From the NCBI GenBank assembly GCA_903901425.1, contig CAIURC010000069.1:1-47593 (forward strand): DNA of 47,593 bases. Reading direction: 5' to 3'. Under the pieces are notes generated by a model, which saw nothing but the letters and a program-made list of their open reading frames with translations, had not been told where the DNA came from and ran no database searches. The position numbers and the translations under genes were made by a program. Source of the stretch: an uncultured Spartobacteria bacterium. Lineage in GTDB: Bacteria; Verrucomicrobiota; Verrucomicrobiia; Chthoniobacterales; Chthoniobacteraceae. Positions 27,144-46,739 of this stretch are shown piece by piece (position 1 is the first letter of the stretch; the number at the start of each line of letters is the position of its first letter).

Positions 27144-27667
27144 CCCGGTGTCACCTCCCGCAGTTTGGATTCCATGCAACCCAACAAAGTTTCCCGGATC
27201 CGCATCAGCGTCATTTTCAATGCGCTCTCCTTTTTTCCGAATCGGTCGCACATCTCCGTAATCGAACTTCCCTCCATGTAGCGGTCCCGGATCAGATCAG
27301 CCTGTTTGGCCGGCAACCGGCTCAGACAATCCCGAAGCGCCAGTTCCCGCTCCTCGGAAGCCTCCCGTTCCCCCTGCTCCGCCTCCTCGTCCGCCAAAAT
27401 CGCCAAAAGTTCCTCATCAAAAACATGCCGGTCCCGTTTCCGGTCCCGTAAAAACGCCCGGGCCTGGAAATAAGCGCACCGGCGGGCCCAGGCGCCAAAG
27501 TCTGTGCCCGGGCGGAACTCCTGAATTTTCTGCCAGAGCACGAGATTGGTTTCCTGGAGCACGTCCCGTGCGTCATGGACGCTGCCAAGAAGAGTCACCA
27601 GATACCCGTAAAGCCGGCTCTGGCAGGCAGTCAGTTCAAAGACAAATTCCTTGTCCTGTGGATTCAT
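27140..27667 (-). CDS. ECF-type RNA polymerase sigma factor (left arm)
   Basis: 175 residues. Region 2 covers about 10-80 (YGYLVTLLGSVHDARDVLQETNLVLWQK, GAWARRCAYFQARAFLRDRK), including the core-binding DVLQE motif. Region 4 is the helix-turn-helix near 120-165 (CLSRLPAKQADLIRDRYME, SITEMCDRFGKKESALKMTL). It resembles the sigma-70 family common in Rhodopirellula and verrucomicrobial genomes. It is first in the left operon and overlaps the FecR-DNRLRE gene. The promoter motif at 27682-27708 suggests autoregulation. Confidence 0.93.
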   Translation of the reverse strand: MNPQDKEFVFELTACQSRLYGYLVTLLGSVHDARDVLQETNLVLWQKIQEFRPGTDFGAWARRCAYFQARAFLRDRKRDRHVFDEELLAILADEEAEQGEREASEERELALRDCLSRLPAKQADLIRDRYMEGSSITEMCDRFGKKESALKMTLMRIRETLLGCMESKLREVTPG

Positions 27668-27784: not shown

Positions 27785-28306
27785 ATGTCGAACCCATCGC
27801 ACGAGCAGAAAGTCCTCCAGCTCTTTGTGAGCCACCAGTCACAGATCAAGGGGTTTATTCTAGCCCTCCTGCCCGACTTTGCTTCGGCCGAGGACGTGCT
27901 TCAGGAAACTTTCCTCGTGGTCCAGCGAAAGGCGTCTGAGTTTGACCTGACGACCAGTTTCACGGCTTGGGCTTTCCGGATCGCCAAGTTTCAGGTCATG
28001 AAGGCACAGACCGCCTACCGACGAAAAGCCGACCGGTTTTCCGATGCCACCCTTGAAGCGCTTGCGGAATGCGCACCGGCTGACCTGTTTGAGGACCGCC
28101 GTCTGTCCGTTCTTCCAGCATGCCTTGCCCAGCTCGCCCCGCAGGCCCGGAAGATCATGGATCTTTTCTATGGTGAAGAGCACAAACCCCGGGAGATCGC
28201 GGCCCGTCTGGGCTGGAGCGCAGGAGCCGTCAGCGTCGCCTTGAGCCGTTCCCGCAAGATGCTCCGGGAATGCATCCAGAGCAAAATCACCCCATCTGTC
28301 CCATGA
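27785..28306 (+). CDS. ECF-type RNA polymerase sigma factor (right arm)
   Basis: 173 residues. Region 2 includes LFVSHQSQIKGFILALLPDF, SAEDVLQETFLVVQRKASEF and TSFTAWAFRIAKFQVMK. Region 4 includes ACLAQLAPQARKIMDLFYGE and KPREIAARLGWSAGAVSVAL. It is the same subtype as the left-arm sigma but clearly diverged in sequence. It diverges from that gene across 117 bp. Its TGA overlaps the ATG of the membrane partner (28303-28306). Confidence 0.93.
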   Translation: MSNPSHEQKVLQLFVSHQSQIKGFILALLPDFASAEDVLQETFLVVQRKASEFDLTTSFTAWAFRIAKFQVMKAQTAYRRKADRFSDATLEALAECAPADLFEDRRLSVLPACLAQLAPQARKIMDLFYGEEHKPREIAARLGWSAGAVSVALSRSRKMLRECIQSKITPSVP

Positions 28307-31600: not shown

Positions 31601-32869
31601 ATGAAACACCGAATTTCCGACCTCAGCCGTCGCCAATTTCTGGAACGGTTCTCCAGCGCATTCCTTGGAGTGACTCTGGCTCCCCAGACGCTCCAGGCAG
31701 GAACCCAGTCTTCGGGAAAGGCTCGCAGCGTGATCTGCCTTTATCTTCGCGGTGGACTCTCCCATGTCGACACCTTCGACCCCAAACCCGGCACACCCGA
31801 AATGGCCGGTGTCAAAGCCATCGCGACCTCCGCCGACGGGATTCAAATCTCGGAATGGTTTCCGCGCATGGCAGCACAAATGCACCGGGTCACTTTGGTG
31901 CGTTCGATGACCTCCACACTCGGCATCCATGAACTGGGTGCCTACACCGCACACACCAGTTATTTCATGACGCCGACCCTCCGGCATCCGGGCCTTTCTT
32001 CGTGGGCGGTCAAACAACTCGGCTCCCACAACCGCCTGCTGCCCGGAAACATCCTCATCAACGGAAGCCCCCAGCATCCAGGCTGCGGTTATCTGGAATC
32101 GCATTTTGCCCCGCTGCCCGTCTCCAACCCCGGAAACGGCCTTCAGGATTCCTCACTTCCCGCCGGCCTTGCCGCGGACGAGTTTGAGCGCCGTTCCCAG
32201 ATTGCGCAGGCTTTGGGTAACCGTTTCCTTGCTCAAACCCGGCACCGCGATGCGGCTGCGTACCTCAAAATGCGCGAAGAGGCTGCCGCCCTGATGAAAA
32301 GCGAAGACCTCAAGGCGTTTGACATCGGCCAGGAATCGGAAGCCACGCGGGAAGCCTACGGAAGCAGCATCTTTGGAAAGGGGTGCCTGCTTGCGCGGCG
32401 CCTGGTCGAGTCAGGTGTCCGTTTTGTGGAGGTGGAAGACCAGAACAACTGGGACACCCACAACGACCAGATCGAATCGATGAAGAAAATGACCCCCAGC
32501 ACCGATCAAGCCATGGCTGCGCTTCTGGCGGATCTTGGCCAACGAGGCCTGCTCGACAGCACTCTGGTCATGATGATCACCGAGTTTGGACGCACCCCAA
32601 AAATCAACCCAGCCACTGCGGGCCGCGGACATCATCCCGGCGTTTTCACCTGGTGGCTTGCAGGCGCCGGAATCAAGTCGGGAACGGTGTACGGGGAATC
32701 CGATCCGACCGGGGAACGCGTTGCCCGGAACCCGGTGACGATGGCCGATTTCAACGCCACCGTGGCCCATGCGATGGGGTTGGACATCGCACACACCGAA
32801 CATTCCCCCTCTGGACGTCCGTTCACGGTTGCAGACAAAGGTAAACCCGTGCTTGAGCTCTTTGCCTAG
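31601..32869 (+). CDS. Tat-exported DUF1501 protein
   Basis: 422 residues. The N-terminus has a twin-arginine motif (LSRRQFLERFSSAFLGVTLA). DUF1501 marks are VICLYLRGGLSHVDTFDPKP, LVRSMTSTLGIHELGAYTAH, RFVEVEDQNNWDTHNDQ, DSTLVMMITEFGRTPKIN and GRGHHPGVFTWWLAGAGIKSG. The fold is related to alkaline phosphatase/sulfatase proteins, but the reaction is not known. It is translationally close to the DUF1549/1553 gene, its usual partner. A decayed copy of its last quarter, together with the sequence just after its stop, lies at 40415-40690. Confidence 0.95.
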   Translation: MKHRISDLSRRQFLERFSSAFLGVTLAPQTLQAGTQSSGKARSVICLYLRGGLSHVDTFDPKPGTPEMAGVKAIATSADGIQISEWFPRMAAQMHRVTLVRSMTSTLGIHELGAYTAHTSYFMTPTLRHPGLSSWAVKQLGSHNRLLPGNILINGSPQHPGCGYLESHFAPLPVSNPGNGLQDSSLPAGLAADEFERRSQIAQALGNRFLAQTRHRDAAAYLKMREEAAALMKSEDLKAFDIGQESEATREAYGSSIFGKGCLLARRLVESGVRFVEVEDQNNWDTHNDQIESMKKMTPSTDQAMAALLADLGQRGLLDSTLVMMITEFGRTPKINPATAGRGHHPGVFTWWLAGAGIKSGTVYGESDPTGERVARNPVTMADFNATVAHAMGLDIAHTEHSPSGRPFTVADKGKPVLELFA

Positions 32870-32928
32870 CGCCGCCCGAAGAACTCAGCCGAAACCGGGA
32901 GCGCAGCCCCTCACCGGGATTTGGATCT

Positions 32929-33105
32929 TCAGCGCCGTCTTCCCGCCGGTTTTCTCTCAACCCGGTTCTCCGTGAAAAGACGATCCAACTGCACATGGTC
33001 CAGCGCACACCCAAACACGTGCACTCCCCCCCTCTCTGCCGCCCTTCACCGCTCCGGAAACATCCGTGCATGGCCTTCCATTGAGCACCACGGCACGATG
33101 GACTC
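32929..33105 (-). pseudogene. Remnant of a FecR-LamG gene 3' end
   Basis: The minus strand here is a decayed copy of the end of the gene at 44014-45582. One frame reads VFGCALDHVQLDRLF, TENRV and KPAGRRR then stop, against VFGCALDHVQVDRLF, RENRV and KPAGKGR in the intact gene, with the stop codon in the same place. Further in, CCGTGGTGCTC matches the intact AVVL segment after a deletion of about 140 bp, and the frame is broken in a G-run. It begins about 60 bp after the DUF1501 stop, convergent with it. Confidence 0.85.
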
Positions 33106-33199
33106 ACCCTAGACTGTTCGACCCTCCGGTTGCCACAGGCAAACCGGGCAGTCTATGGCCTCCTCAAAGACGGTATCATACCCTCTCACTCCCCGGTAC

Positions 33200-33640
33200 G
33201 CTCCCCACAGATTCCCAGCACACCGGCTGAAAAAGCAATTTCATAGCTTTTGGGGCAAGGCAGGTGCCGACGCGGAATTCGGCAACAGCCTCTTCCTCGC
33301 GGAATACGCCGATGGGTTCATCATCGACAACGAATTGATGCAGGATCAGACCGGCGGGGATCTTTTTGACGGACCGGCGCAACCTTGGCGACTGCATGAA
33401 GGACTCGACCTTTGGCGGAGCAATCCAAAGCCGGGGGCGGTCCCAGAGCCGTGGGGGAATGATCAAGAAAGTATTCCTTGGTGGAACACCCCTCAAGGGT
33501 CTCAAGAGGCGACAGATTCAGGCGCCGTGGGCTGTGCTGGCGCACAACCCGTGGGTGGAGGCGAGGCTGCTGAGAGAGTGCAAGCTGGAGGGCCGTGCCC
33601 AAAAACAGCGATTTACCAGAGCAAAACACTGGAAATTCGG
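33200..33640 (+). pseudogene. Transposase remnant, frameshifted
   Basis: Two frames give pieces of one transposase. The first reads FWGKAGADAEFGNSLFLAEY then GFIIDNELMQD; the next frame reads GGMIKKVFLGGTPLKGL, RRQIQAPWAVLAHNPWVEAR. This order (GKAGxxxEFGN, then KNVFLGG, then WAVLAHN) is that of a DDE transposase end that I recognise from related genomes but cannot assign to a named IS family. The middle with the catalytic acidic residues is eroded. I see no terminal inverted repeats. The flank 33641-33876 shows nothing else. Confidence 0.65.
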
Positions 33641-33876
33641 CTCACCGGTTCATTCAGATCGGGTGGTTAACAGCCACCAAGCCATTCGCCGCTAAGAAAA
33701 ATCATGAAAATCCTAAAACCCGGCTTCTGCCGAAAAATCCGCCGGTAATGTCACCCTACCTACACCCAGGAAGGCAAAACTGAACTTCCCAGCAGGCCTT
33801 GATCTCCCCCCCATGATGCAACACTGGATTCATCCACAATGATCCGTGAAGTGCCGTTATTTGGGTTGAATCGCTT

Positions 33877-35508
33877 TCAGTGGCCTATCTTCTTTTCTTC
33901 CTTGTCTTTGGCTTTCCGATCCGATGCCGGCACGCCCTGCGTCGGCTTGACCGGAGGTGCGGGCTTTGATTCGGACCGCATGGGTGGCTGCGGCGCTTTT
34001 GGTTTGCGCTTCACCTGTGTCGTGTCCGGCCCCTCCACCGGCTTCACCGGCCTAGGACGGGCCTGACGATCCCCCAGGGAGCGCGCCACCGCTTTGGGGG
34101 CCACCGCTTTGGGGGCCACCGCTTTGGGGGCCACCGCTTTGGGGGCCACCGCTTTGGGGGCCACGGCTTTGGGGGCCACGGCTTTGGGGGCCACGGCTTT
34201 GGGGGCCACGGCTTTGGGGGCCACAGCTTTGGGGGCCACGGCTTTGGGGGCTGCGGCTTTGGGCGCGGCTGACAGCGGTGGCCGGTTGCTTTTCGCTTCC
34301 GGAACGGGGGCGATCGGCTGCCGCACATGTTCCCGCGCTAGATCCGGAATTTGTGCCGGCTCGGGCTGTGGTCGGCCATCGTTTTTTTTCTTCAAAGGCA
34401 GCGGTATTGCCTCTGTCTTGTTGGACGGCAACGGTTCGGGCTTCACCAACCGCCCGGAATGGGTCGGAGGTTTTTGCGGGGGCGGCCGCAGCGGCGCGGA
34501 GCGCTGGGAATCCATTGGCTTTTGTTGCACCTCAGAACGGGAGCGCGCGGCGGGATCCCGCTCAGGTTTTGTTGTGCCAATTGGCGGCACAACGGCTCGC
34601 GTTCCGGCCGACTCGCCCTTGATCTTGTGGCGCACCTTGGCCACCTCGGCGGGCGGCCCATCGTTTTTCCATCCATGATCGATCTCAATCGCCGCAGTCT
34701 TCGGCCCGAGTTTTTTCGGGACGGCTTTGGTTCTGGTCTCGAACGGCACGGCAACCACCCGGAGCGAGTTACCCTCGACTTGGGAGCTCAATTGCCCGGG
34801 CCCCGGCCGCCCGCCTTCGAGCCCACCGCCCTCGAGCCGCTTGCGCCGATCCAGCTTCAGGCGCCGGATCGGCGCAGCACTTTGACGGGAGGTCGCCTCA
34901 TAGCTTGGCCCGGCATTGTAGACCACGTCATGCACATAGGTCACCCGGGTGATGTTGATGGTTTGTTGGATGATGGTGAGGTTTTCGTGCTGCGGCCGGA
35001 GGTAATTCCGCAAGCGCGACGCGCCAAAATTACGCACGTCCACAAAGTTATAGTTTCCGGGACCAATATCGTATTGCGCATCGACGTGGCCATCAAATCC
35101 AGACGCGCGAAGAAACTCGGCCTCGGGCGGCAGCGGCGCCCAGCCGACATGACGCGAGCTACGACGCCAAGCGACCCAAGCCGGGCCCCATTCTCCACCC
35201 GGCACCCAGACCCAGCCGATGGGGTGAACGCGTGCCCAGCGCCCGTAATGATAGACCGCCCAGGAATAAGGTGCCTCGGAATCCCAGGTCCACCCGGCAT
35301 CGGTATAGATCCAGCGCCCATCGCTGTAGGGCCGCCAGTCCCAGTCCACCTCCCTCGGTTGCCAGCAATAACCATAATGATCGAGCTCCACCCAGTCGCC
35401 ATAGGGGGCGAGACTTTCGTAGAAGAATTCCACGGACAGATTGTCCTCTGCCCGGGAGGCAATGGCAAAAAAGAGCAGAAGCACCACCAGCGAACAGATG
35501 CGTTTCAT
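33877..35508 (-). CDS. Exported DUF6600 protein with Ala-Pro-Lys repeat region
   Basis: 543 residues with signal peptide MKRICSLVVLLLFFAIASRA. Residues about 27-145 form a tryptophan-rich DUF6600 domain (LAPYGDWVELDHYGYCWQP, DWRPYSDGRWIYTDAGWTW, WAVYHYGRWARVHPIGWVW, GWAPLPPEAEF). Residues 300-540 are low-complexity, rich in P, K, A and R, and contain a run of 12 APKAV-type pentapeptides (DNA 34085-34264). The tail is strongly basic, so it may bind the cell wall, polyanionic glycan or nucleic acid outside the membrane; that is inferred. Function of DUF6600 is unknown. The small lipoprotein gene is 100 bp upstream on the same strand. Confidence 0.87.
   Translation of the reverse strand: MKRICSLVVLLLFFAIASRAEDNLSVEFFYESLAPYGDWVELDHYGYCWQPREVDWDWRPYSDGRWIYTDAGWTWDSEAPYSWAVYHYGRWARVHPIGWVWVPGGEWGPAWVAWRRSSRHVGWAPLPPEAEFLRASGFDGHVDAQYDIGPGNYNFVDVRNFGASRLRNYLRPQHENLTIIQQTINITRVTYVHDVVYNAGPSYEATSRQSAAPIRRLKLDRRKRLEGGGLEGGRPGPGQLSSQVEGNSLRVVAVPFETRTKAVPKKLGPKTAAIEIDHGWKNDGPPAEVAKVRHKIKGESAGTRAVVPPIGTTKPERDPAARSRSEVQQKPMDSQRSAPLRPPPQKPPTHSGRLVKPEPLPSNKTEAIPLPLKKKNDGRPQPEPAQIPDLAREHVRQPIAPVPEAKSNRPPLSAAPKAAAPKAVAPKAVAPKAVAPKAVAPKAVAPKAVAPKAVAPKAVAPKAVAPKAVAPKAVARSLGDRQARPRPVKPVEGPDTTQVKRKPKAPQPPMRSESKPAPPVKPTQGVPASDRKAKDKEEKKIGH
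34085..34264 (-). repeat. 12-unit 15-nt tandem repeat coding APKAV
   Basis: Twelve 15-nt units, GCCACCGCTTTGGGG on the plus strand, lie inside the DUF6600 gene. The first five (plus order) carry GCCACC, the next ones GCCACG, one GCCACA, and the last is GCTGCG. This blockwise pattern points to expansion by slippage from within the array. Confidence 0.95.
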
Positions 35509-35608
35509 GGAAGGAATTCCCGGAGTCTATTGAGGCGCTTGATCCCGCAAGGGAGGAAGCCGCCGCGGATACGCTGCACGAGGGCCATCGAGGATCTCAA
35601 TAAGTACG

Positions 35609-35797
35609 CTACGTGCGCGTCTCGATGCCGTTCCTGCTTGGATAACGACCGTTCCGCATCGACCGGCGGAAGGTGCTTTCGCTGGTTGTTGTCGTGTTCC
35701 TATGGAACGAAGGCTCACGCTTTTCGACAACGGTGGTGCAGGCGGAGAACGAAAACAAAGGTGCGGCAGTGAGACCGGCAAGAATCAGGCTTTTCAT
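35609..35797 (-). CDS. Small lipoprotein
   Basis: 62 residues: MKSLILAGLTAAPLFSFSAC is a lipoprotein signal with the lipobox ending at Cys20, followed by a short T/R/S-rich tail (TTVVEKREPSFHRNTTTT). It precedes the DUF6600 gene on the same strand by 100 bp, and small lipoproteins of this style are common near surface proteins. There is no clear ribosome-binding site and no family I can name, so a chance frame cannot be excluded. Confidence 0.5.
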   Translation of the reverse strand: MKSLILAGLTAAPLFSFSACTTVVEKREPSFHRNTTTTSESTFRRSMRNGRYPSRNGIETRT

Positions 35798-35934
35798 AAT
35801 ATGGAATTCGCAATTTGGTTCCGCGGGTTATTTACTTCTGGCTAAATATTCATCGGCGCTGGGTCGTTGTTTGGCCGCACGAAAAACGCAGATTTTTCAT
35901 CGGGCCGGAGGCCACTGGCTCGGCAACACCTAGA

Positions 35935-36075
35935 AAGAATGATGAGCTCAAGGGGGCGGCGACCGTCCGACAGATCGCCGCCGAGAACCACCGGCATCCA
36001 GTGCAAGTCACCCAATCAAAAACGGTGGAGTCGGCGTCTAGAGTTTTTGCGAGCGGCCGGGGACCGGAGAACTAG
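35935..36075 (+). pseudogene. IS3-type OrfA remnant
   Basis: The frame reads KNDELKGAATVRQIAAENHR, then HPVQVTQSKTVESASRVFA and stops after GRGPEN. This matches the helix-turn-helix part of IS3-family OrfA (T-x-x-IA-x-x-x-x-HP-x-QVTQWK), with the W of QVTQWK changed to S and a few residues missing after it. No OrfB follows. The rest of 35798-36420 has no supported gene apart from the terminator. Confidence 0.65.
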
Positions 36076-36312
36076 GAGGCCAGCAGACCATCTTGATCGT
36101 ACGGCTTTGGCGGTCAGGAACGCACAAGGCAGTGGCGCGATGGGCCCACGAAACGATGGATGAACTCGGGAGTGCCTTGGCCAAATGGCTCTAGGAATAC
36201 AACCGCCCAGCACACACACAAACTTCGGCTCTCCATGGTTGCACGACAAGCCAGCTTTGGCCTGCACTTTCCCCTGGCTTGCCCCGTTTCCAGCAAAGCT
36301 TCGCAGCCCTGA

Positions 36313-36360
36313 TTTAAAAAAGACCGATTGCACCGGGCCCATTCGAGCCACGGTGCAATC
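36313..36360 (-). terminator. Rho-independent terminator of the beta-helix gene
   Basis: Read on the minus strand, GATTGCACCG and CGGTGCAATC form a perfect 10-bp stem around a 15-nt loop, followed by GGTC and a run of six T. It lies about 60 nt past the stop of the gene at 36421-40008. Confidence 0.88.
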
Positions 36361-36420
36361 CTGGTTTCTCTCACGGATCCACTGCTTTGGATCCGGCTGC
36401 CCCGTGCGCCGGGGCCGATT

Positions 36421-39400
36421 TTATCGGACGCCGAGGATGCGTCGGTCCTCGGGCTGGCCTTTCTGTGCAGGGATGAGCAGATCTGCCTGGCCCGCCATCC
36501 TGCCCGTCACCGGATCCCGCTTCAGGACCCCCATCATCGAACCCACCGTGCCGTTTGTTCGGTTCATGGGCGTGTATACGAGAAGTTCCCCGGCAGCTCC
36601 TGCACCGTAGACATAGTGGAGAAAGCCGAGCCCGCCCGCCAGCGAACCCTTGAGCGTGCTCTGACGACCCGTTGCGTCAGCCCCATTTTTCTGAAGCGTC
36701 CATGCCTCAGCGGACCCGCTTCCATCGGCCAATCCCACCTGAAACTGAGCTTCACCGGCTGCGGTCGTGCAGCGCCACCCGCTTACTGCAAGGGTTTCCG
36801 CTCCATCCGGTGACACCAGACGCCCCACCATTTTCCCTTTAGAATCGAGCTGCAGATCCAGAAACCCGGAAAAGACCGGTGACGGAGCCCCTATTGCAGT
36901 CTGGCGCAGATCTGCCTGGAGCACACTGGTGCCAGAGGGGCTGGCGAAGAGCCTTCCCGCCTTTGAGTTGAAGAGACTTGCCGCGGAACGCAACTGGAGC
37001 GAGTAAGCGCCCGTGGAGGTGACCTGAAGGATCACCCGGTGTCCCATCTGAGCATTTAAAGCGCCACGCTCGATCAACCCGACATAGCTGCCCTCAGCGA
37101 CAATCGGAAAGACCTTCATCTGTCCGGGATGATACTTGAACACATAGTTCCCGAGAGCCGCTGCGCCCGTGGCATTGATCTGGTAAGTGCCCGCCGCGCT
37201 TGCAGGGCCGGCATCCGTCTGCATCGCGACCTCCGCCCGAGGAAGCCCGGCGCTGTCTCCATTGCGGAGCCCGAACCAACGCCCGGTGAACCCGGGGTTT
37301 TCCTCGCCGACAAACCGGGCGGCTGTGTCTACATACCATTCCGCGAGAGCCGGCCGCACAGTCAACACTCCATCCACTGGAGTGACTTTGTATCTTTCCA
37401 AAACTGCGCGCTGCGCTTCACCAAGTGAAGCGGAATCCAGTGGCTGCACCATCAACTGGAACCGACCGGCAGGGAGGGGCGCGTTGATTGCCACGGCCTT
37501 CCCATCCGCTGCTGCGCGAATTCCCACCCGGAACGCTGCCCGCAAGGCAGTACGGTCACTTTCGACGGCGCCATCGTCTTCACACACAAATTGGGGCAAC
37601 GCATCCCCGTAGGTCATCTCCCGGGAGACCACCTTTATTTTGACCGGTTTGGGCGTTGTGGTCAACCGGATCTCACGACTTACTGCAGCGTAACTCGCAT
37701 CAGACGGGGTGAACGTACAGACGAGGTAATTCTGGCCAGCGCGCGCAATCCGCTGGTAGGTCCACGCACCAGCCACCGGGGGAACCTTTGAGCAGGGCTG
37801 TGCGGTTGCGTCTGCCGCACCGTATTCAACCGCAACCTGGTCCACCCACTCCAGTCTCAGCTGCCGCTTCGGCGCCACGGGAGCCGGCATCCGGGGCCAG
37901 GCCGGACAGGAAACACTGCTTTCCACGAGCTCCAAGGAGAGTTGCCAGTCGCCTGCCTGTGGCTTCACAGGCTGCATTCTTCCGAGGCGGGGAGCCACCA
38001 CCGGCGTGAACGAAAGCGTCACCTGCTCCGGGAGCACCTCCCCGGAAAGCAGCACCTCGGTCAGAACCGGCCCCAAATCCGAACAATTCTGCTCCGGCCA
38101 GCCGTTCCTCGGAAGCCAGCCGAACAGACTATTTGTCAAACTCCCGTCCGATTTTTTACCCCGGACATAATACCAGCTATCATCGGGATTTACCGCTCCT
38201 TCAGAAAGATTGGGCACTTTGAGGGACGCCTTCCAAATCCGGGTGCCACGGGTGAGAGCGTCCATGAGTTCGCGGGTCACCTGGAATCGAATTTCTGTCG
38301 GGTTCCGCGGGTCGTGGGAAAATATGGTTGCGGGATTCCGGCTTGTGAGAACGGGAGTCGGAGCGATCCGCGTGGGGCTGTTTGGAAGGACGCCGGCCGG
38401 CGCATATGGCTCCGCGACAGGCACACCCACTTCCGCGAGGTACTGGCGAGCCCTCTGGTAGGGAGTCTTGGACCTGTCGGGATTCGTCCTACTGACCAGC
38501 ACCTCCAGCCGGCCCACATCGACGCGTCTCACGTTGTCCGTCGCCACCCTCTCATTCTCCGCCGCCATGTTGCGGGCTTTGACCCATGCACTGTCATTCA
38601 AAGAGCGCTGAGCCACGTTTTTTTCGGCCTCAGTCAACACATCCTCCGCCTGCGCGCCCTTCGGATACAAATTGTCCTTGGCCAGCCCTTCGAAGGTCAG
38701 CCTCGGGTCCGTCAGTGAAACGCAACGGCTCCATTGACCCCCGGATTTCGCCGGGAGATCATAGCCGCGGTTGTTGTGGACCCGTATCCCCTCTTTTGTG
38801 GAGAAATCGCCCGCCCCGCTCCGGGCGCAAACGTCCACCGAGACCGCAGTCGTCCAGCTTGGGGTATCCTGCCGGGTTCGGACAGCGGTGTTGTTCAGAA
38901 ATTGAACATTCCTTGCTGGCGCGCGCCCGTTCTTTTCCTTGTTGAACTCGGCGAGAGCAAACTGCGTCTTTTCCACACCCACCACCAGATTGGAATGGAC
39001 GGTGATGGAATCGACGAGATTCATGAGTTCGTTGGAAACCACGATGCCGGCACCACATCCAAAGACAACGTTGTTGTAGACGGTTATCTCCTGGTTGATG
39101 CCCTCGTACGAGTCGATATAAATCCCCGCCCTTCCAATTGCCGGATCGGTCTTCACGCCTGGCGAGATGGGAGGCAGGACCTTTACAGGCAACACCTGAA
39201 GACCGTGCACCACGTTGTCGTGCACCGCGATAAACCGGGAGCCACTCACGCCAATCCCCTCACCGCCCTTATTCACTGCGACATTTTCCCGGTCGCAGAC
39301 CTCGTTGAATGCCACCTCGATGTTCTCAGAGGCTTTTACCGTGATGCATTCGCCGGAGCCCCGACTCACAGCGTTCCTCACCACGTTCCCAATCACCGAC

Positions 39401-40008
39401 GACTCTCTGCAGGAGGTCAGCCGGATCCCATTTTTGTCGGGCCCTTTCTGGGTGGTGCCCACCTGGTTCTCTTCCACCCTCACGCCACTCGCGTTCTCGA
39501 CGACAACACTGCCGGCACCGCCCGTGAGCACATTTCGGAAAATGCGGACATCGCGGCCCCCCTCTACTTTGATACCGACGTCCTTGAGCGGCAGGCATTC
39601 CACAGAAACATAGTTCACTTTCGTGAGCTGCACCTTCGTAAACTTAAGATCCGTGCTTTTCACCCCTGGTGCAATCGTCAAGCGCAGCCGATTCACCGTG
39701 CTCCGGCTGGAATGGTTATGGTCATCCGCTTTAAGATCCAGCTCGTATTGACCGGCCCCGAATTGAATCTCGGAAACGGTGCCGGCCTTGACTCCGCCCA
39801 AGGCCTGGGTGAGGTCGGCCTGTGACCTGACGGTCACCGTTTTCAGGGAGGCTGCACGAGCCACTGGTGGTGCAGCGACGGCGGGCGCCGCTTCCAGCCA
39901 TAGCGGCCCAGTCAGCCGTGTGAGCATGAGGCAGCAGGCCAGGTGTTTCAGAATGCGTGGGGCAGGCGTCTTGGCGATGCCTGTCGCCCCGGTGGGATTT
40001 AGGTTCAT
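36421..40008 (-). CDS. Large exported beta-helix protein with MBG domains
   Basis: About 1195 residues from the ATG at 40008, chosen because a signal-like segment follows (ILKHLACCLMLTRLTGPLWL); in-frame ATGs at 40080 and 40116 are alternatives. Residues about 70-420 form a right-handed parallel beta-helix of the pectate-lyase/PbH1 type, with repeated N/V units (VRIFRNVLTGGAGSVVVEN, ITVYNNVVFGCGAGIVVSN, DSITVHSNLVVG). Residues about 785-960 contain MBG-type Ig-like modules (VKIKVVSREMTYGDALPQF; YKVTPVDGVLTVRPA). The last 220 residues are a beta-rich domain (GSYVGLIERGALNAQMGHR). It may be an adhesin or a polysaccharide lyase; no catalytic residues can be assigned. A strong terminator follows. 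Confidence 0.85.
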   Translation of the reverse strand: MNLNPTGATGIAKTPAPRILKHLACCLMLTRLTGPLWLEAAPAVAAPPVARAASLKTVTVRSQADLTQALGGVKAGTVSEIQFGAGQYELDLKADDHNHSSRSTVNRLRLTIAPGVKSTDLKFTKVQLTKVNYVSVECLPLKDVGIKVEGGRDVRIFRNVLTGGAGSVVVENASGVRVEENQVGTTQKGPDKNGIRLTSCRESSVIGNVVRNAVSRGSGECITVKASENIEVAFNEVCDRENVAVNKGGEGIGVSGSRFIAVHDNVVHGLQVLPVKVLPPISPGVKTDPAIGRAGIYIDSYEGINQEITVYNNVVFGCGAGIVVSNELMNLVDSITVHSNLVVGVEKTQFALAEFNKEKNGRAPARNVQFLNNTAVRTRQDTPSWTTAVSVDVCARSGAGDFSTKEGIRVHNNRGYDLPAKSGGQWSRCVSLTDPRLTFEGLAKDNLYPKGAQAEDVLTEAEKNVAQRSLNDSAWVKARNMAAENERVATDNVRRVDVGRLEVLVSRTNPDRSKTPYQRARQYLAEVGVPVAEPYAPAGVLPNSPTRIAPTPVLTSRNPATIFSHDPRNPTEIRFQVTRELMDALTRGTRIWKASLKVPNLSEGAVNPDDSWYYVRGKKSDGSLTNSLFGWLPRNGWPEQNCSDLGPVLTEVLLSGEVLPEQVTLSFTPVVAPRLGRMQPVKPQAGDWQLSLELVESSVSCPAWPRMPAPVAPKRQLRLEWVDQVAVEYGAADATAQPCSKVPPVAGAWTYQRIARAGQNYLVCTFTPSDASYAAVSREIRLTTTPKPVKIKVVSREMTYGDALPQFVCEDDGAVESDRTALRAAFRVGIRAAADGKAVAINAPLPAGRFQLMVQPLDSASLGEAQRAVLERYKVTPVDGVLTVRPALAEWYVDTAARFVGEENPGFTGRWFGLRNGDSAGLPRAEVAMQTDAGPASAAGTYQINATGAAALGNYVFKYHPGQMKVFPIVAEGSYVGLIERGALNAQMGHRVILQVTSTGAYSLQLRSAASLFNSKAGRLFASPSGTSVLQADLRQTAIGAPSPVFSGFLDLQLDSKGKMVGRLVSPDGAETLAVSGWRCTTAAGEAQFQVGLADGSGSAEAWTLQKNGADATGRQSTLKGSLAGGLGFLHYVYGAGAAGELLVYTPMNRTNGTVGSMMGVLKRDPVTGRMAGQADLLIPAQKGQPEDRRILGVR

Positions 40009-40121
40009 GGGAGGTTTGGTTCTGGGTTGGCTGCCCGCCGCTCTTGACGGTTTCCGTCTGCGGCGGGAAACGAGTTTCATTGGGAGGTGCCCCCCCCCAC
40101 TTGCAGACTGCAGCATTTTTG

Positions 40122-40132
40122 AATACCGCAGA
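40122..40132 (-). promoter_or_regulatory. Half-match of the sigma-type motif upstream of the beta-helix gene
   Basis: The minus strand reads TCTGCGGTATT, an 11-nt match to the -10 half of the motif before the left sigma gene. The -35 box at 13 nt is not TKTGACR (it reads TAAAACA), so this could be a different promoter class or chance. Confidence 0.3.
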
Positions 40133-40210
40133 CCTGTTCGATGTTTTAAGGGGGGCGCAGGATCTGTGTCGCGATTTCAAACCTTAATGGCTCCCGACGT
40201 TTTTTCATTC

Positions 40211-40263
40211 CCCCTTTCGGGTGAAACCCGCGAGGGGGCCCTCCATTTGTGGCGCCGCCACAG
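40211..40263. other. Two adjacent stem-loops
   Basis: The first is CCCCCT/AGGGGG with an inner CGGGT/ACCCG stem around GAA (40211-40239). The second is TGTGGC/GCCACA around GCC (40249-40263). Neither is followed by a T-run in a useful orientation. Confidence 0.5.
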
Positions 40264-40414
40264 ATTGCATTGGAAGAGGCTGCAGGCCATCGGAGGGAAC
40301 GCCAAGCCCCCCGGAACTCACTCTGAGTGCTGTGCTACTCACACGCAGAAACCTGCACCCATGGGGAACGCTGTAGAGCCTCCTTTCAGAAACTCAGGGA
40401 CAGGGTACGCCCTC

Positions 40415-40632
40415 GCGTTCAGGGGCTTTGAGGATATCAATGCGGGAACAGTGCACGGGGAGTCCCCCTCACCACGAAACGCGTTGCCCGGAGCCCGGCG
40501 CCCATGGCCGACCACGTCGCCACCGTGGCCGAATCGATAGGCCTGGACATCGCGCACATCGAACATCTTCCCTCCGGGAGCCCCTTCACCGTCGCAGACA
40601 AAGGCAGACCGGTGCTCGAACTCTTTACCTGA
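40415..40632 (+). pseudogene. Remnant of a DUF1501 gene 3' end
   Basis: This stretch aligns with the last part of the intact DUF1501 gene at 31601-32869. The end reads IGLDIAHIEHLPSGSPFTVA then DKGRPVLELFT and stop, against MGLDIAHTEHSPSGRPFTVA, DKGKPVLELFA. Upstream, GGAACAGTGCACGGGGAGTC matches GGAACGGTGTACGGGGAATC. The similarity continues about 55 bp past the stop (GCCCGAAGAAC, GCGAAGCCCCTGACCGGGAT against GCCCGAAGAAC, GCGCAGCCCCTCACCGGGAT). The first three quarters are missing. The remainder of 40009-40845 has no supported gene. Confidence 0.85.
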
Positions 40633-40845
40633 AACTGCCCGAAGAACCAAGTCGACCCAAGGAGCGAAGCCCCTGACCGGGATTGCTTCAATCCACTGCA
40701 AAAAATCGGCTCCAAGGACTTGGCCGGCCGGGTCGGATCGACCAGATCTCATCCGCCGTTGCTGTCTGTGCGCACTGCGTGGCAAAGAGCTCCGCGCTGG
40801 CTGGGGGGGCGGTGATTTTGAAAAAATCCAAAAAGATGATTTCCC

Positions 40846-41997
40846 TCATCTTGAGAGGGCTTCGAGCACCGAATAATACGCAGGCTTCGGCTGGCCCGCG
40901 GTGTCAAACATCAGGGGGTGCAGTGGTTTCACGGTCTCCGAGGGGAGATCGTTCAGCCAAGTGTACTTGTCGTACAACCCCCACTGGAGAACCCCTTTGA
41001 AACGCGGTTGAGTCCGGCACGCCTGGAGAATCTTTGCATACACCTCCGCCTGACGCCGCAACGAGGCGGGCGAAGCATCCTCCAGTTTCATGTCTAGTTC
41101 CGTGATGTAGATATCGAGACCCAAGTCGGCAAACCGCTGCATATTCGCCTTCAAACTCTCCACATTAATTGTCCCTGGCACCCACCAGCCATCCGCCCCC
41201 TCCTTGCTCAAGTGCATCTGGAATCCCACCGCGTCCACCGGCACCTTCCGTGACTTGAGCCCTTTGAGCAGGCTGTAGATGAAGTCTGACTTTCCATTTA
41301 TTTCTGAGTTCGCAAAGTCATTGTAGATCAGGACCGCCCCGCGGTCAGCATTTCGGGCTGTGGTGAAAGCCTCTTCGATATACGCCGCCTCCGGCTTCCC
41401 ATTCTGCGCAAATGCCTTCTGCCAAAGGTTGCGGGTCAACCCCCACCCGTTGGTTGTGGCCTCGTAATCCACCGCCTCGTTCACCACAATCCAGGAACGC
41501 ACTTTTCCGAGGTAATGCCCAACCACCGAGGCGACCTGGTTCTTCATTGCGACCCGCAGCGGCTCCCATGCCTGCTTTACCTCCAACTGCTTGACCCATT
41601 CGGGCAAGGTCGCTGGCATCGCATAAACCAGCGGTGTTCCCTGAACCGCCATACCCGCCTTCTGCGCGTACTTCATGGTGTAGTCGGGATAAAACCAGTC
41701 GTAGTGGTTCGGCTTTAAAGTAATGCTCGACATGAAAACCGGCATCGCCACCACGTTAAACTCGCGCGCCGCCACCCGGTTCAGCAAATCCGTGTATGGC
41801 CCGACCGTCGCACGGCACTTCGGATCCCCCTCCCGCAGAAACCAGTAGTGCGAGATGAAGAACCCAACCCCAAGCCCATGCCGATCCGCAGCCTGCCTCA
41901 GGGTTTGTGCCCCCCCCTGCGACTTTGCCAGCGGCACCTGCCCCATCACCCCTTGCCAAAACCCTCCCAAAAAAACTGCCAGAAACGCGGAGCCCAT
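40846..41997 (-). CDS. Exported GH10-like glycoside hydrolase (divergent xylanase family)
   Basis: About 383 residues from the ATG at 41997 (signal MGSAFLAVFLGGFWQGVMG); an ATG at 42036 is also in frame. The fold is GH10: acid/base Glu in SWIVVNEAVDYE (E174), nucleophile Glu in LDIYITELDMKL (E300), GFQMHL before it, and VLQWGLYDKYTWL near the end. Two segments that line the xylan -1 to -3 subsites look changed: the usual ENxMKW region reads FMSSITLKPNHYDWF, and the usual HTLVWH reads GTPLVYAMPATLPEW. The catalytic pair is kept, so it should be a glycosidase, but its substrate may not be xylan. No CBM is attached. Confidence 0.87.
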   Translation of the reverse strand: MGSAFLAVFLGGFWQGVMGQVPLAKSQGGAQTLRQAADRHGLGVGFFISHYWFLREGDPKCRATVGPYTDLLNRVAAREFNVVAMPVFMSSITLKPNHYDWFYPDYTMKYAQKAGMAVQGTPLVYAMPATLPEWVKQLEVKQAWEPLRVAMKNQVASVVGHYLGKVRSWIVVNEAVDYEATTNGWGLTRNLWQKAFAQNGKPEAAYIEEAFTTARNADRGAVLIYNDFANSEINGKSDFIYSLLKGLKSRKVPVDAVGFQMHLSKEGADGWWVPGTINVESLKANMQRFADLGLDIYITELDMKLEDASPASLRRQAEVYAKILQACRTQPRFKGVLQWGLYDKYTWLNDLPSETVKPLHPLMFDTAGQPKPAYYSVLEALSR

Positions 41998-42476
41998 ATG
42001 CCTGTGCCACCTGGAATACGGTGAAGAGGTCCCCATACGCGCAGTAAAGTAGCACCCTTAAACTGGGCCCTCAAGAAGTCTCAAGATCGGTCCGAAGTCG
42101 CCACGCTCGCTCCCTCCGCCCACCAACCCGCGCCGTTTTCACACGGCCGCTCTCGATTTACCTGCGTGTCGTTTTTCGGGCTCCGAACGACTCTTCCAGC
42201 CGATTCGGCATGCTGAGGATCTGCTGTGGTTAGCAGCCGCCTTGTCGCTCTCCGCTCCGTCCTTGGCTCCGGCTGACCCCATCGCCTCGTCAAGCGCCGC
42301 TGGCAAAAACGCGGATCGAGTCAAAAGGTTGTAAGGCATCCAAAAAATGACCACCGTCTCCGAGTGCGTGTGCCACCAAATCTCACGATTTGAGGGACAC
42401 CCCTGCGTCTGCACCTTTCCCTGCACTGGCGGATGATGCAGGACCATCTCATCATCGAACCTTGCCCTCCCATCCC
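41998..42476. other. Gap between the divergent GH10-like and SGNH genes
   Basis: About 480 bp with no gene I can support. Open frames on both strands lack family features. It must hold promoters for both neighbours, but no clear boxes are visible. Confidence 0.5.
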
Positions 42477-43931
42477 ATGCGTATCCCCCCAGTCCCCCGC
42501 ACCTTCTGGAGTCTTTGTCTGGCTGTTGTTGCTGTCGCCGCCCCTCTCCACGCCGGGGAATCCACCGCGCCGCAGTTCCAATCCGATTCCCGCGTCTGCT
42601 TTATCGGCGACAGCATTACCGCGGGCGGTGTCTATTCCACCTACCTCAAGATTTTCTATGCCACCCGGTATCCCGACCGGGAAATCGCATTTTTTAACGC
42701 CGGCAAATCCGGGGGAAGCGCCGGAGACGCCGTAAACCGGCTGGCATGGGATATCTTGGTCCATCGTCCCACCGCAGCCACGGTTTCGTTTGGGATGAAC
42801 GACATGAGCCGGTTGCATCTGGGCATCAGCGGAACCCCAGAAGCGCTGGAGCAAGCTATTCAAGAGCGAATGAAATCCGTGGAAACGAACTACAACACGC
42901 TGCTCGACGCTCTGACCAAAGCGAATGTCACACTGACTCTGATCGGCCCTTCGCCCTACGACGATACGCTTCAGGTCGAAACCAAGATCGAGCGTTCCAA
43001 CGTGGCCATGGCCCGGTGGACCGCGCGGATCGCGGAAATCGCCAAAAAACGCGGCGCGGGTTTTGTCGACATGGGCGCCGCGCTCAACCCGGTGAACCAA
43101 CGCCTTCAGGCCGTGGACCCCGCAGCCAGTATCGTGGGCAAAGACCGGGTCCATCCCGGGCCCGCCGGGCATCTGGTGATGGCCATGGCCATTCTCAAAG
43201 CTCAGAATGTGGCTCCCGAAGTTTCCCGGATCCAGGTCGATGCCAAGACCGGCAAACCCGGTCCTCTGATCCACTGCACAGTGGAAGCGGTTCGGACCAG
43301 CGCGCAGGGAGTCGAGTTTCTCTGCCGTGAGAACGCTCTGCCCTTTGTTTTGCCGCAGGAAAGTGGAACGCAGGCATTCTGGGGCATCGCGGAGAAAGCG
43401 GCGGCCCAGATCCAGTTGGCAGGCGGACCGGAACTGATCCCGTTTCAGCGCGAGCTCAACCGCGAGACGCTGCATGTCACCGGACTTGAGTCGGGGCGCT
43501 ACCAAGTCCGGATTGATGAGCAGTGGATTGGCGAGTACGGGGCCGAGGAACTTGCCGAGGGCGTCAACCTGTCTGAAAATCCAAAGACTCCGCAATACAC
43601 CCAAGCGCTGGCTCTTGCAAAATCGCTGGAGGCCGTTCGTGGGTTGGAGGGTTCGTTTTTCCGACTCGTCGCCCATGTCCGGGGCAGTTTCCTTGAACCT
43701 GCAAAGGTGGACATCCAAGACGATGCTGCCGTGGAACACTGCCTGCGAGAGGCGATTGCGAAACTTCCACCTGATAACTACGGCCGCGCCATGGCGGAGC
43801 GTTATCTCAAGACCGTGCCCGGCCAGACAGCCGGCAAACTCGAGGAACTCGAGAAATTGCTCCTCCAAATCCGAGAGCAGCGCGTGCTCAAGCCCCACCG
43901 GTTCAGCGTGACCCGCAAATCGGAAGGCTAA
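42477..43931 (+). CDS. Exported SGNH/GDSL-family hydrolase
   Basis: 484 residues with signal peptide MRIPPVPRTFWSLCLAVVAV and Ala-rich cleavage region. SGNH blocks are in order: VCFIGDSITAGGVYSTYL (nucleophile Ser), FNAGKSGGSAGDAVNRL (block II Gly), SFGMNDMSRL (block III Asn) and KDRVHPGPAGHLVMA (Asp and His). The C-terminal 220 residues (YGAEELAEGVNLSENPKTPQ, EGSFFRLVAHVRG) are an accessory region seen in verrucomicrobial relatives. Such enzymes often remove acetyl or other ester groups from glycans. Divergence from the GH10-like gene fits a shared polysaccharide role; that is inferred. Confidence 0.9.
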   Translation: MRIPPVPRTFWSLCLAVVAVAAPLHAGESTAPQFQSDSRVCFIGDSITAGGVYSTYLKIFYATRYPDREIAFFNAGKSGGSAGDAVNRLAWDILVHRPTAATVSFGMNDMSRLHLGISGTPEALEQAIQERMKSVETNYNTLLDALTKANVTLTLIGPSPYDDTLQVETKIERSNVAMARWTARIAEIAKKRGAGFVDMGAALNPVNQRLQAVDPAASIVGKDRVHPGPAGHLVMAMAILKAQNVAPEVSRIQVDAKTGKPGPLIHCTVEAVRTSAQGVEFLCRENALPFVLPQESGTQAFWGIAEKAAAQIQLAGGPELIPFQRELNRETLHVTGLESGRYQVRIDEQWIGEYGAEELAEGVNLSENPKTPQYTQALALAKSLEAVRGLEGSFFRLVAHVRGSFLEPAKVDIQDDAAVEHCLREAIAKLPPDNYGRAMAERYLKTVPGQTAGKLEELEKLLLQIREQRVLKPHRFSVTRKSEG

Positions 43932-44013
43932 GTACTCCGGTTGGACGTCCGCCAGCGGTGCAGTTGGTTCCGAAGCTAACCACCACCCGCCCGCTGCTCA
44001 GCACAACAAACCT

Positions 44014-45582
44014 TCAGCGCCCTTTGCCCGCCGGTTTCCCATCCACCCGGTTCTCCCGGAACAACCGGTCGACCTGCACATGGTCCAAGGCACATCCGAA
44101 CACGTACACCTCGTCCACCCCGCCCCGGAACCCCTTCACCGCTCCGGAGATGTTCCGTCCGAGCCAGACTCCCCGATTGGGTCCCTGAAGGTCTGTGTTC
44201 ACCTCCATCACCGCTTTTCGTGCGGCGGGCTCGAGCCTGCCGTCGACGTAGAGCAGGACATGCGTGGAAATATCCGCGCCCGGTCCCCCGTAGAGCACCA
44301 CGGCACAGTGGTGCCAGTTGCCATCCCGCAAATCGGTGGTGCCCACCACCGGCGCCCGGTTCACCCCCACCCGCAAACGGCCAATCGGCCCCTCCGCCTC
44401 CGCAGGATTGATTGAAATCTGCCAGGCCGATCCCGGCTCCGCATGGCTCCCCCACCCGATCACGCCGTAGCCGTGCCCGACATCAAAATCGGCAGGCACT
44501 TTCACCCAGAAGGCCACCGTCCGCGCATCAGACCCGCCAATTCCTGGAAAATCGCTGCGGGCATAACTGCCTTCCCCCGTGAACTCCACGCCCTGGCCAA
44601 AACGTCCCGCCACTCTGACAGGCAACCCCAGCGCAGCCGTGACCCGCACCAACTCCAAGTCCCGGATCCCATCCGTCCCTGCCAAGTCCCGGCCACGGTC
44701 GGGAATCACGGACTCGGTGCCCTCAAAATCCCAATGCACATACCCGGTCTGGTTCTCCGGGACCGGCGGCAGAGTGCGCACAAACGCGCCCCGGTTGGAC
44801 GCGAGGCGCAGAGGCGCATCGGACAACCGCAACGCCTGGTCACGTTCGAGCCGCACCTTGCCGCCTCCGGCACTCGGATGGGCCTCCACAACGCCCTCCA
44901 AGACATGGACTTCCATCCCCTCTTTGTCCCCGACGGAGACGCCGAACTCCGTTCCCAGATCCACAAGTTTACCGCCCCGCCCTTCGATGGTGAACCCGTG
45001 AGCCTTTTCAGGCACCCGCGCCACCACCCGCCCTCGTTCCAACCGGGCGCTCCACCCGTTCTGCACCCAAAGTTCCGCAGGCCCCTCCACAATCACCTGC
45101 GCCCCGCACCCAAAACGCAACTCCACCAGACCCGACTCCAGAGAAATCTTCCGGCCCGGTTCAAACTTCTGGCCGGGTTCAAGCGCCGCCCAGCTTTCCA
45201 CCCGGAGCACCTCTGCCCCCTGGGGTTTGCGCATCGCGAACCAGCCCGCGCCACAGACCAAAAGACAGGCCGCCAATTTCAACCAGAACCCTTGTCGTCT
45301 CCGGGCCACGACCCGCGCCTTGACGCGCTCGGCGAACTCCGCCCCGCCTCCTGCTGCAAGCCCCATCAACACCTCCCGGCGCAGCATCTCGCCCCCGGGA
45401 TCCCGTGCAGCAACACCCAGCAACCTTTCCACCAGGACATGTTCACCCAAACGCGCCGCCAGTTCAGGATCCCGCCGGCACTGTTCCACCAACCGGCTCA
45501 GATCGGCCGCGCCCAGTTCCCCGGCAACCCCCCGCGCCAGAAGTTCCTCCTGTTCCTCACTGTTTTGGCCGTTCGGTTCCAT
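44014..45582 (-). CDS. FecR-domain membrane protein with LamG extracellular domain
   Basis: 522 residues. The N-terminal 95 residues are a cytoplasmic anti-sigma-like segment (LLARGVAGELGAADLSRLVE). One membrane helix lies near 99-116 (FWLKLAACLLVCGAGWFA). A FecR domain follows at about 130-260 (GLVELRFGCGAQVIVEGPAE, GGKLVDLGTEFGVSVGD, EVHVLEGVVEAHP). A LamG/concanavalin-like domain occupies about 345-510 (FTGEGSYARSDFPGIG, RTVAFWVKVPADF, NWHHCAVVLYGG, FRGGVDEVYVFGCALDHVQV). It is 16 nt downstream of the ECF sigma gene. It probably senses a surface ligand, perhaps glycan, and controls that sigma factor. A decayed relative of its 3' end is at 32929-33105. Confidence 0.92.
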   Translation of the reverse strand: MEPNGQNSEEQEELLARGVAGELGAADLSRLVEQCRRDPELAARLGEHVLVERLLGVAARDPGGEMLRREVLMGLAAGGGAEFAERVKARVVARRRQGFWLKLAACLLVCGAGWFAMRKPQGAEVLRVESWAALEPGQKFEPGRKISLESGLVELRFGCGAQVIVEGPAELWVQNGWSARLERGRVVARVPEKAHGFTIEGRGGKLVDLGTEFGVSVGDKEGMEVHVLEGVVEAHPSAGGGKVRLERDQALRLSDAPLRLASNRGAFVRTLPPVPENQTGYVHWDFEGTESVIPDRGRDLAGTDGIRDLELVRVTAALGLPVRVAGRFGQGVEFTGEGSYARSDFPGIGGSDARTVAFWVKVPADFDVGHGYGVIGWGSHAEPGSAWQISINPAEAEGPIGRLRVGVNRAPVVGTTDLRDGNWHHCAVVLYGGPGADISTHVLLYVDGRLEPAARKAVMEVNTDLQGPNRGVWLGRNISGAVKGFRGGVDEVYVFGCALDHVQVDRLFRENRVDGKPAGKGR

Positions 45583-45598: not shown

Positions 45599-46174
45599 TC
45601 AGGCGGTTTTGAGCCGACCGTTCATGCACGCCGCAAGCGCGCTCCTGAGCCGGTGCAACCGCATGGTGAGTGCCGAGTGCCGCGTCCCATGCCTCTCGGT
45701 CAGTTCCCGGATCGACAACCCCTCCCCGTACCGCGCTTCCACCAAGGCTCGGGCTTCGGGATCCATCTCCCCCAAACATTCCCGCAGCGCCTCGGTGCGA
45801 GTGTCTTCCCGGGCCACCTCGCACAAACGTTCCACCTGAACTCCAATGAGTTCCTCCAGTTCCTGCTGGGCACCGACCGGTTCCGGACGGAATTTCCTCT
45901 GGTAATTGCGCAGCAGGTTCATCGCAATCGTCCGCAACCAGGGACCCAGAGGATCTCCCGGCCTGAATTCGCGGAGCCGACGGTGCGCCACCAAAAATGT
46001 CTCCTGCGCCAGGTCCTCGGCATGGTCCATGGACCCCAAACGCGCCGCCAGCATCCCGCGCACCCCCCGCTCATAACGCACCACCAACTCCCCAAATGCT
46101 TCCAAATCCCCGGATACGGAAGCCAAAACCAGCTCCGTCTCAGACAGCCCGCCGCGTTGCATCGTCGTCTCCAT
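45599..46174 (-). CDS. ECF-type RNA polymerase sigma factor (third)
   Basis: 191 residues from the ATG at 46174, which has AGGAG 2 nt upstream; an ATG at 46162 is an alternative and the frame is open to 46354. Region 2 includes AFGELVVRYERGVRGMLAAR, DHAEDLAQETFLVAHRRLRE and LGPWLRTIAMNLLRNYQRK. Region 4 includes CLGEMDPEARALVEARYGEG and SIRELTERHGTRHSALTMRL. It pairs with the FecR-LamG gene just downstream. A promoter-like motif related to those of the left arm lies at 46212-46238. Confidence 0.93.
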   Translation of the reverse strand: METTMQRGGLSETELVLASVSGDLEAFGELVVRYERGVRGMLAARLGSMDHAEDLAQETFLVAHRRLREFRPGDPLGPWLRTIAMNLLRNYQRKFRPEPVGAQQELEELIGVQVERLCEVAREDTRTEALRECLGEMDPEARALVEARYGEGLSIRELTERHGTRHSALTMRLHRLRSALAACMNGRLKTA

Positions 46175-46211
46175 AGCTCCTATTCTTTTGATGTCTTGCC
46201 CCCTTTTTTCT

Positions 46212-46238
46212 GACACCGCGATTTTTTTGTGTGTCAAA
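46212..46238 (-). promoter_or_regulatory. Bipartite promoter-like motif before the third ECF sigma gene
   Basis: Read on the minus strand: TTTGACA, 13 nt, CGGTGTC. It agrees with the TGTGACG-13-CGGTATT motif at 10 of 14 box positions, all four differences being single substitutions, with identical spacing. The -10-like box ends 38 nt before the ATG at 46174. The same stretch contains a TGACAC/GTGTCA dyad. Confidence 0.5.
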
Positions 46239-46328
46239 ACTGCAGTCTGGGAACATCCCCTTCCAAGAACCCCCCATTTTAACTCTCCCCCCTCCTCCGC
46301 CGTGTTGTTTTCCACCCACCATCCCACC

Positions 46329-46739
46329 ATGCACCACCACCGACTCCGATTCATCCTCTGCCTGCTTCCCGTCCTTCTGGCGGGATTCGCCTCCTCCCTC
46401 CTCGCTCAGGCGCCCGCTGCCAGAATCCAGGATGTCTCTCCCGACAAAGCCACGGAGCTGATTGCCAAACAAAAACCGCTCATTTTGGATGTCCGCACCC
46501 CGGAGGAGTTCGCCGACGGCCATTTGGCGGGTGCCGTGAACATCAGTTCTGCGGATCCTGAGTTTTCAAAAAAGATCGCGGCACTCGACCAGACGCGCCC
46601 GGTTTTGGTGCATTGCGCCGCCGGTGGCCGCAGCCGGCGGGTTTTACCAGCGCTTGAGGCACTGAAATTTCCATCCATCCATCATCTGGCAGCCGGATTC
46701 AACGGCTGGCTGGATGCCGGCAAACCTGTCCAAAAGTAA
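46329..46739 (+). CDS. Exported rhodanese-domain protein
   Basis: 136 residues with signal peptide (HRLRFILCLLPVLLAGFASS). A single rhodanese domain follows: ILDVRTPEEFADGHLAGAVN, then the active-site loop VLVHCAAGGRSRR with Cys at its head, then HHLAAGFNGWLDAGKPV. The loop CAAGGRS is the right length for a sulfurtransferase, so persulfide chemistry in the envelope is plausible. The frame is open to 46188, but the signal peptide starts at 46329. The FAD oxidoreductase gene starts 20 nt downstream and may be cotranscribed. Confidence 0.92.
   Translation: MHHHRLRFILCLLPVLLAGFASSLLAQAPAARIQDVSPDKATELIAKQKPLILDVRTPEEFADGHLAGAVNISSADPEFSKKIAALDQTRPVLVHCAAGGRSRRVLPALEALKFPSIHHLAAGFNGWLDAGKPVQK

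Follow-up and report, generated by a model that had tools for sequence, protein, structure and literature searches.

Does the decayed tail of a gene, found together with a little of the noncoding DNA that follows it, mark the site of a whole operon that has since been lost, or does it record the copying of something smaller? The question is raised by a scrap of a DUF1501 gene at 40.4 kb in a 47,593-nucleotide stretch of DNA (hereafter, the window) that constitutes contig 69 of the 5.1-Mb draft genome (224 contigs, 96% complete) of an uncultured Spartobacteria bacterium. A sequence-only reading of the window had attributed the scrap to a segmental duplication and had concluded that a second sigma-cytochrome-DUF1501 cassette once stood near 40 kb. 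The intact DUF1501 gene (31601..32869, plus strand) matches PF07394 over positions 1-390 of 390 (E 1.4e-108) and lies downstream of a cytochrome gene with PSCyt1, PSCyt2 and PSD1 domains, of ORF 28270 and of a sigma factor gene. Genes with PSCyt and PSD domains have been described in the Verrucomicrobia and, according to passages of that account, PSCyt2 and PSCyt3 genes usually neighbor two families of unknown genes (PMC5615132). In the window, two divergent sigma factor genes stand back to back (27140-27667 and 27785-28306), and each has a cytochrome-type gene set of its own behind it, comprising FecR, DUF1552 and PSCyt3-type genes after the left sigma gene, and ORF 28270, PSCyt2 and DUF1501 after the right one. 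A literature search on this locus turned up no paper.

The duplication of the DUF1501 3' end, with many substitutions, is real. On the plus strand, positions 40436..40684 align with 32672..32921 by blastn at 190 of 250 columns (76%, one gap, E about 1e-46), a match that takes in the final 65 DUF1501 codons and 52 bp past the stop. The duplicated stretch had been placed at 40415-40690; its start moves to 40436 and its end to 40684, leaving CTTCA at 40686-40690 as perhaps one more shared word beyond the match. The scrap starts at about codon 358 of 422, and the one-base gap in the alignment falls just before the part that lies in the DUF1501 frame (40471..40632, plus strand), which ends in TGA and has the same translation as the intact gene in 39 of 54 codons, the stop counted. 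When the two copies are compared at a constant offset of 7763, 36 of 159 bases differ in the coding part (32708-32866). Past the stop, the noncoding flank (40633..40684, plus strand) is identical at 40 of 52 positions, and identity drops to the background level of 15/59 in the next 59 bp, so that a shared flank estimated beforehand at some 55 bp is confirmed with an extent of 52 bp. No other ungapped 52-mer in the window exceeds 30/52, and none of 256 control regions scores as high as the 40436-40684 match. Taken with the alignment itself, these figures support a segmental duplication that included noncoding DNA.

Searches for further DNA copies of the scrap found none. When 40201-41000 was compared with the whole window, this match and a 17-base word (E 0.38) were the sole hits besides self, and a search of the draft genome with 40360-40760 added just a 19-base word (E 0.95) and hence no third copy. 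The same search with 32600-33130 returned, beyond both copies, a match at 44012-44148 and eight short hits with E of at least 0.015. At the protein level the scrap resembles the intact sister gene over 52 residues (73%, E 1.6e-18), and the PF07394 profile has no match at 40.4 kb among the 61 genome matches listed at E<=0.001. Some of those 61 DUF1501 matches are themselves broken or truncated: the piece at C134:23455-24190 carries two TAG codons and a frame break, further such pieces occur at C106:33694-33849 and C193:22968-23123, and those at C154:59202-59555 and C30:1-105 lie at contig ends. In the stretches examined, C106 and C193 contain no self-repeat and C134 contains a single 56-base inverted repeat; a habit of junction duplication at broken DUF1501 genes was accordingly not seen in these pieces.

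The observation on which the interpretation turns, and which was absent from the sequence-only reading, lies past the stop of the intact DUF1501 gene. The match at 44012-44148 belongs to an intact gene on the minus strand (44014..45582) with LamG (PF13385) over the cut-off and FecR just under it (E 1.4e-4), and the left-hand copy holds a decayed 3' end of this FecR-LamG gene (32927..33101, minus strand) that matches within 44012-44311 and is interrupted by an internal deletion of about 120 bp. A repeat search aligns 32927-33024 with 44012-44109 at 80% and 33056-33101 with 44266-44311 at 76%; the gapped alignment of 32927-33058 with 44012-44148 reaches 76.6% (E 4e-21), and the relic preserves 34 residues of the FecR-LamG C-terminus at 76% identity. 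Control regions reach these two matches in 0 of 256 and 0 of 221 cases, respectively. In the left-hand copy the FecR-LamG tail, beginning at 32927, follows closely on the DUF1501 flank, which ends at 32921, with 59 bp between the two stop codons, and the pieces are collinear in the two copies: an intact DUF1501 gene facing a FecR-LamG tail on the left, and a DUF1501 tail facing an intact FecR-LamG gene on the right. Beside the latter lies a sigma factor gene (45599..46354, minus strand; Sigma70_r2 and Sigma70_r4_2), presumably of the ECF type given its layout next to FecR-LamG.

These mirrored relics are probably the outcome of a duplication of the convergent junction between the DUF1501 and FecR-LamG genes, with both ends of the duplicated segment inside the genes, so that each copy was left with one truncated tail. 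The ancestor would have carried DUF1501 (plus strand) and FecR-LamG (minus strand) in a tail-to-tail arrangement, their stop codons about 59 bp apart. A segment spanning the junction, with putative breakpoints within both genes, would then have been duplicated, presumably in a single event, to give copies now 7763 bp apart, the left with the whole of DUF1501 and the FecR-LamG tail and the right with the DUF1501 tail and the whole of FecR-LamG. Deprived of its own start, and presumably of a promoter, the DUF1501 tail at 40.4 kb would have decayed freely, while the FecR-LamG tail would at some stage have lost its 120 bp. The similar divergence of adjacent pieces, with identities of 123/159 in the DUF1501 tail, 40/52 in the flank and 76.6% in the FecR-LamG tail, counts in favor of one duplication. 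Against a simple duplication, the truncated ends would be expected side by side and are now 7.3 kb apart; therefore, a further insertion or a longer duplicated unit is needed.

The right-hand copy has itself been divided. Its two halves are separated by 3327 bp (40685..44011) holding a GH10 gene (40846-42036, minus strand; Pfam GH10) and a GDSL lipase/esterase gene (42390-43931, plus strand; Lipase_GDSL_2). As the left copy has just 59 bp between the stop codons, this segment was probably inserted later into the right copy, rather than deleted from the left one, and would thus have split the right copy after the duplication. The word CTTCA occurs at both ends of the segment (40686 and 44012), and a comparison of 60 and 55 bp there for common words 5 to 11 bases long yielded no other, although one so short may be shared by chance. 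Between the two copies (33877..40116, minus strand) lie a DUF6600 gene (33877-35508), in which about 12 repeats of a 15-bp unit, GCCACCGCTTTGGGG and its variants, encode Ala-Pro-Lys-Ala-Val (34085-34264, minus strand), and an MBG/NosD-repeat gene (36421-40116) of 1231 amino acids that is long, open, unrelated and directly upstream of the scrap. The FecR-LamG relic is adjoined by a frameshifted DDE transposase remnant (33254..33569, plus strand), detected by tblastn with a 517-aa frame (L089) from contig C39 of the same genome in two frames, at 33254-33361 (69% over 36 aa, E 1.6e-11) and 33357-33569 (54% over 72 aa, E 4e-18); PF05598 (DUF772) is over the cut-off in L089 and PF01609 (DDE_Tnp_1) just below it. 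L089 is among the relatives of the open frame 33155-33670, in which Pfam finds nothing up to E 0.1. The remnant may be read as a decayed insertion element at one border of the DNA that separates the copies.

The substitutions in the DUF1501 scrap are informative about its history, within the limits of 162 coding and 52 flanking bases. Genes of the same kind were found in G002, a genome of the same genus (69% identical), and at loci L091 (67%) and L123 (65%). In a tree of the 162-base tail (GTR+G), the two window copies are sisters with respect to these three genes (support 90), and the branch of the scrap (0.256) is longer than that of the intact copy (0.087). When G002 serves as outgroup and the stop codon is excluded, 31 of the 36 differences can be assigned, falling at codon positions 1, 2 and 3 in numbers of 0, 1 and 11 in the intact copy and 10, 6 and 3 in the scrap. 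Synonymous and amino-acid-changing substitutions number 10 and 2 in the intact copy, and 2 and 17 in the scrap (Fisher p 8e-5), against an amino-acid-changing share of 75% expected without constraint. The observed amino-acid-changing share is inflated by third positions that are poorly polarized, 7 of 17 being unresolved with three outgroups. Taking the majority of the three outgroups assigns 27 of the 36 differences (intact 6 and 2, scrap 2 and 17; p 0.002), and requiring all three to agree assigns 18, of which the intact copy accounts for 3, two of them at position 3, and the scrap for 15, all at positions 1 and 2 (p 0.02). The 11 third-position changes assigned to the intact copy and the mere 3 assigned to the scrap, where equal mutation would be expected, form an unexplained asymmetry that counts against an unconstrained scrap and may reflect poor polarization or chance. 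At positions 1 and 2 the scrap has changed at 16 of 106 sites (0.15) along one branch, while the flanks differ at 12 of 52 over two branches, half of which is 0.12; the scrap rate is not below this half, so that hardly any period of function, if any, has to be assumed. On these few sites the scrap appears to be without visible coding constraint, and it looks to have been dead since birth or soon after. The stop codon is TGA in G002, L091, L123 and the scrap, and TAG in the intact copy, which is, on this comparison, the derived state. The FecR-LamG tail offers 20 differences in 96 bases (7, 2 and 11 at codon positions 1, 2 and 3), a pattern that, with no usable outgroup, neither supports nor excludes the same history as the DUF1501 scrap.

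Relatives were also considered as witnesses of the ancestral gene order. The DUF1501 gene of G002 is accompanied by cytochrome, ORF 28270 and sigma genes and is followed by a BNR-repeat gene. Its downstream flank matches neither flank in the window (287 and 325 of 500 shuffles score as high), while for the two window flanks against each other no shuffle of 500 is as good. In G002, L091 and L123, whose DUF1501 genes match best, the DNA examined downstream of DUF1501 (about 1.3 and 2.2 kb in L091 and L123, respectively) contains no FecR-LamG match, and a FecR-type hit was obtained at one (L121) of the best 80 DUF1501 loci. FecR-LamG matches at 1e-50 are present in 7 of 40 family genomes, the window's own included, and the contig of the best relative (48%, in G034) runs out before the junction is reached. 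The ancestral DUF1501/FecR-LamG junction was thus seen in no relative and is one that we infer. Other genes of the window were tried as markers of an older gene order and set aside, the relatives of none being decisive. GH10 relatives at 1e-60 occur in 2 of 40 genomes, own included, with one close relative (L176, on contig C69 of G002), a locus where nothing but GH10 aligns as DNA; the MBG gene has one further locus (G000:C207, in the window's own genome); and DUF6600 relatives are widespread (31 of 38 genomes searched, own included). At most about 2.5 kb separates L176 from a DUF6600-type gene, and GH10 and DUF6600 genes are neighbors in the window too, where the DUF6600 protein is only about 37% identical to that beside L176.

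The first alternative to junction duplication is a larger event, in which a complete second cassette (sigma, ORF 28270, cytochrome and DUF1501) was copied to 40 kb and lost save for its tail, the FecR-LamG copy on the left being lost reciprocally. The segmental duplication is real, a large unit could cover both gene sets, and the decay of both relics is compatible with such a history; on so few sites a brief functional period of the second copy is possible as well, although the scrap shows no visible period of constraint. Against it, no trace of the sigma gene, ORF 28270, the cytochrome gene or the DUF1501 body is seen near 40 kb. The tblastn searches (E up to 1) gave no sigma, ORF 28270 or cytochrome hit beside the scrap: in the window, the cassette sigma factor matched the three sigma genes and, at 15.6 kb, a stretch of 35 residues (E 0.03), ORF 28270 one further hit (E 0.54) inside DUF1501, and the cytochrome gene one further hit, at 24 kb, in another PSCyt gene. 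In addition, the gaps were scanned with shuffles for relics of the DUF1501 body, the cytochrome gene, FecR-LamG and the sigma factor. Ten scan intervals were matched by at most 4 of 200 shuffles; one is the 33056-33101 match, one overlaps the known DUF1501 match, and the other eight were dropped, controls scoring as high for the same gaps. This was so for the DUF1501 body in the 319 bp upstream of the scrap (40117-40435; 18 of 238 control regions), for the cytochrome gene in the same 319 bp (68 of 194), and in two further comparisons (16/224 and 25/248). The comparisons for 33570-33880 and 35509-36420, whose controls took in the query's own position, were left out. A search of relatives for an intact cassette at this location found none. 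Two independent losses would presumably also have had to halt near the same junction. The complete cassette is an unlikely explanation, and the earlier conclusion that one once stood near 40 kb is not borne out.

A second alternative invokes a circular DNA of about 7.8 kb, bearing the DUF6600 and MBG genes, a transposase and a diverged version of the junction stretch, that entered the chromosomal junction by a single crossover, with the repeats forming the ends of the insert. Such an integration leaves the order that is seen (intact gene, repeat, other DNA, repeat, intact gene), needs no second event to account for the 7.3 kb that separate the copies, and agrees with the presence of a transposase remnant at one edge. 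The copies are sisters in the tail tree, however, and no donor of the segment was found elsewhere in the genome; the DUF6600 cargo, with its many relatives, is not obviously foreign; and the three frames between the copies that were scanned with Pfam (35.5-36.4 kb lying outside the scan) contain no integrase or replication gene. We regard this integration as quite improbable. The broader notion that circular DNA bearing a diverged junction integrated by homologous recombination at the convergent 3' ends and left both resident genes intact, in which case convergent gene ends would serve these genomes as safe docking sites for DNA, is very doubtful. Lastly, that the stretch is a functional repeated element, such as a bidirectional terminator or a 3' regulatory RNA, kept for its function is highly implausible: the flank has been conserved no less than the coding part, but its divergence is also that of a dead coding part, the folding of either flank is no better than that of shuffled sequence (z 0.88 and -0.26), and the genome searches yielded no further DNA copy.

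Duplication of the convergent junction hence remains the preferred reading, and the scar is most likely inert, with no function proposed for it. The locus cautions that the loss of a whole operon does not follow from a decayed gene tail and its flank, and that the neighbor on the far side needs inspection as well; in this case, the mirrored tail indicates that a junction was copied, and not a cassette. This is an ordinary, small piece of local history and, in our judgment, bears on no open question of wider interest. Relics of partial gene duplication typically combine a gene tail with noncoding flank, a frame break, lost coding constraint and an intact parent nearby, and the scrap has all of these in common with them. 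It departs from the usual relic in that two opposing genes have each left a tail, the relics mirroring each other, and in that the copies lie 7.8 kb apart, one of them split by other genes. The parent locus, in turn, is like the PSCyt2-PSD1 / DUF1501 pair of PVC bacteria, with a cytochrome gene (PF07635, PF07583, PF07587) followed by DUF1501 (PF07394), and also has a sigma factor gene upstream, whereas the scrap at 40.4 kb consists of the DUF1501 tail alone, without the cassette.
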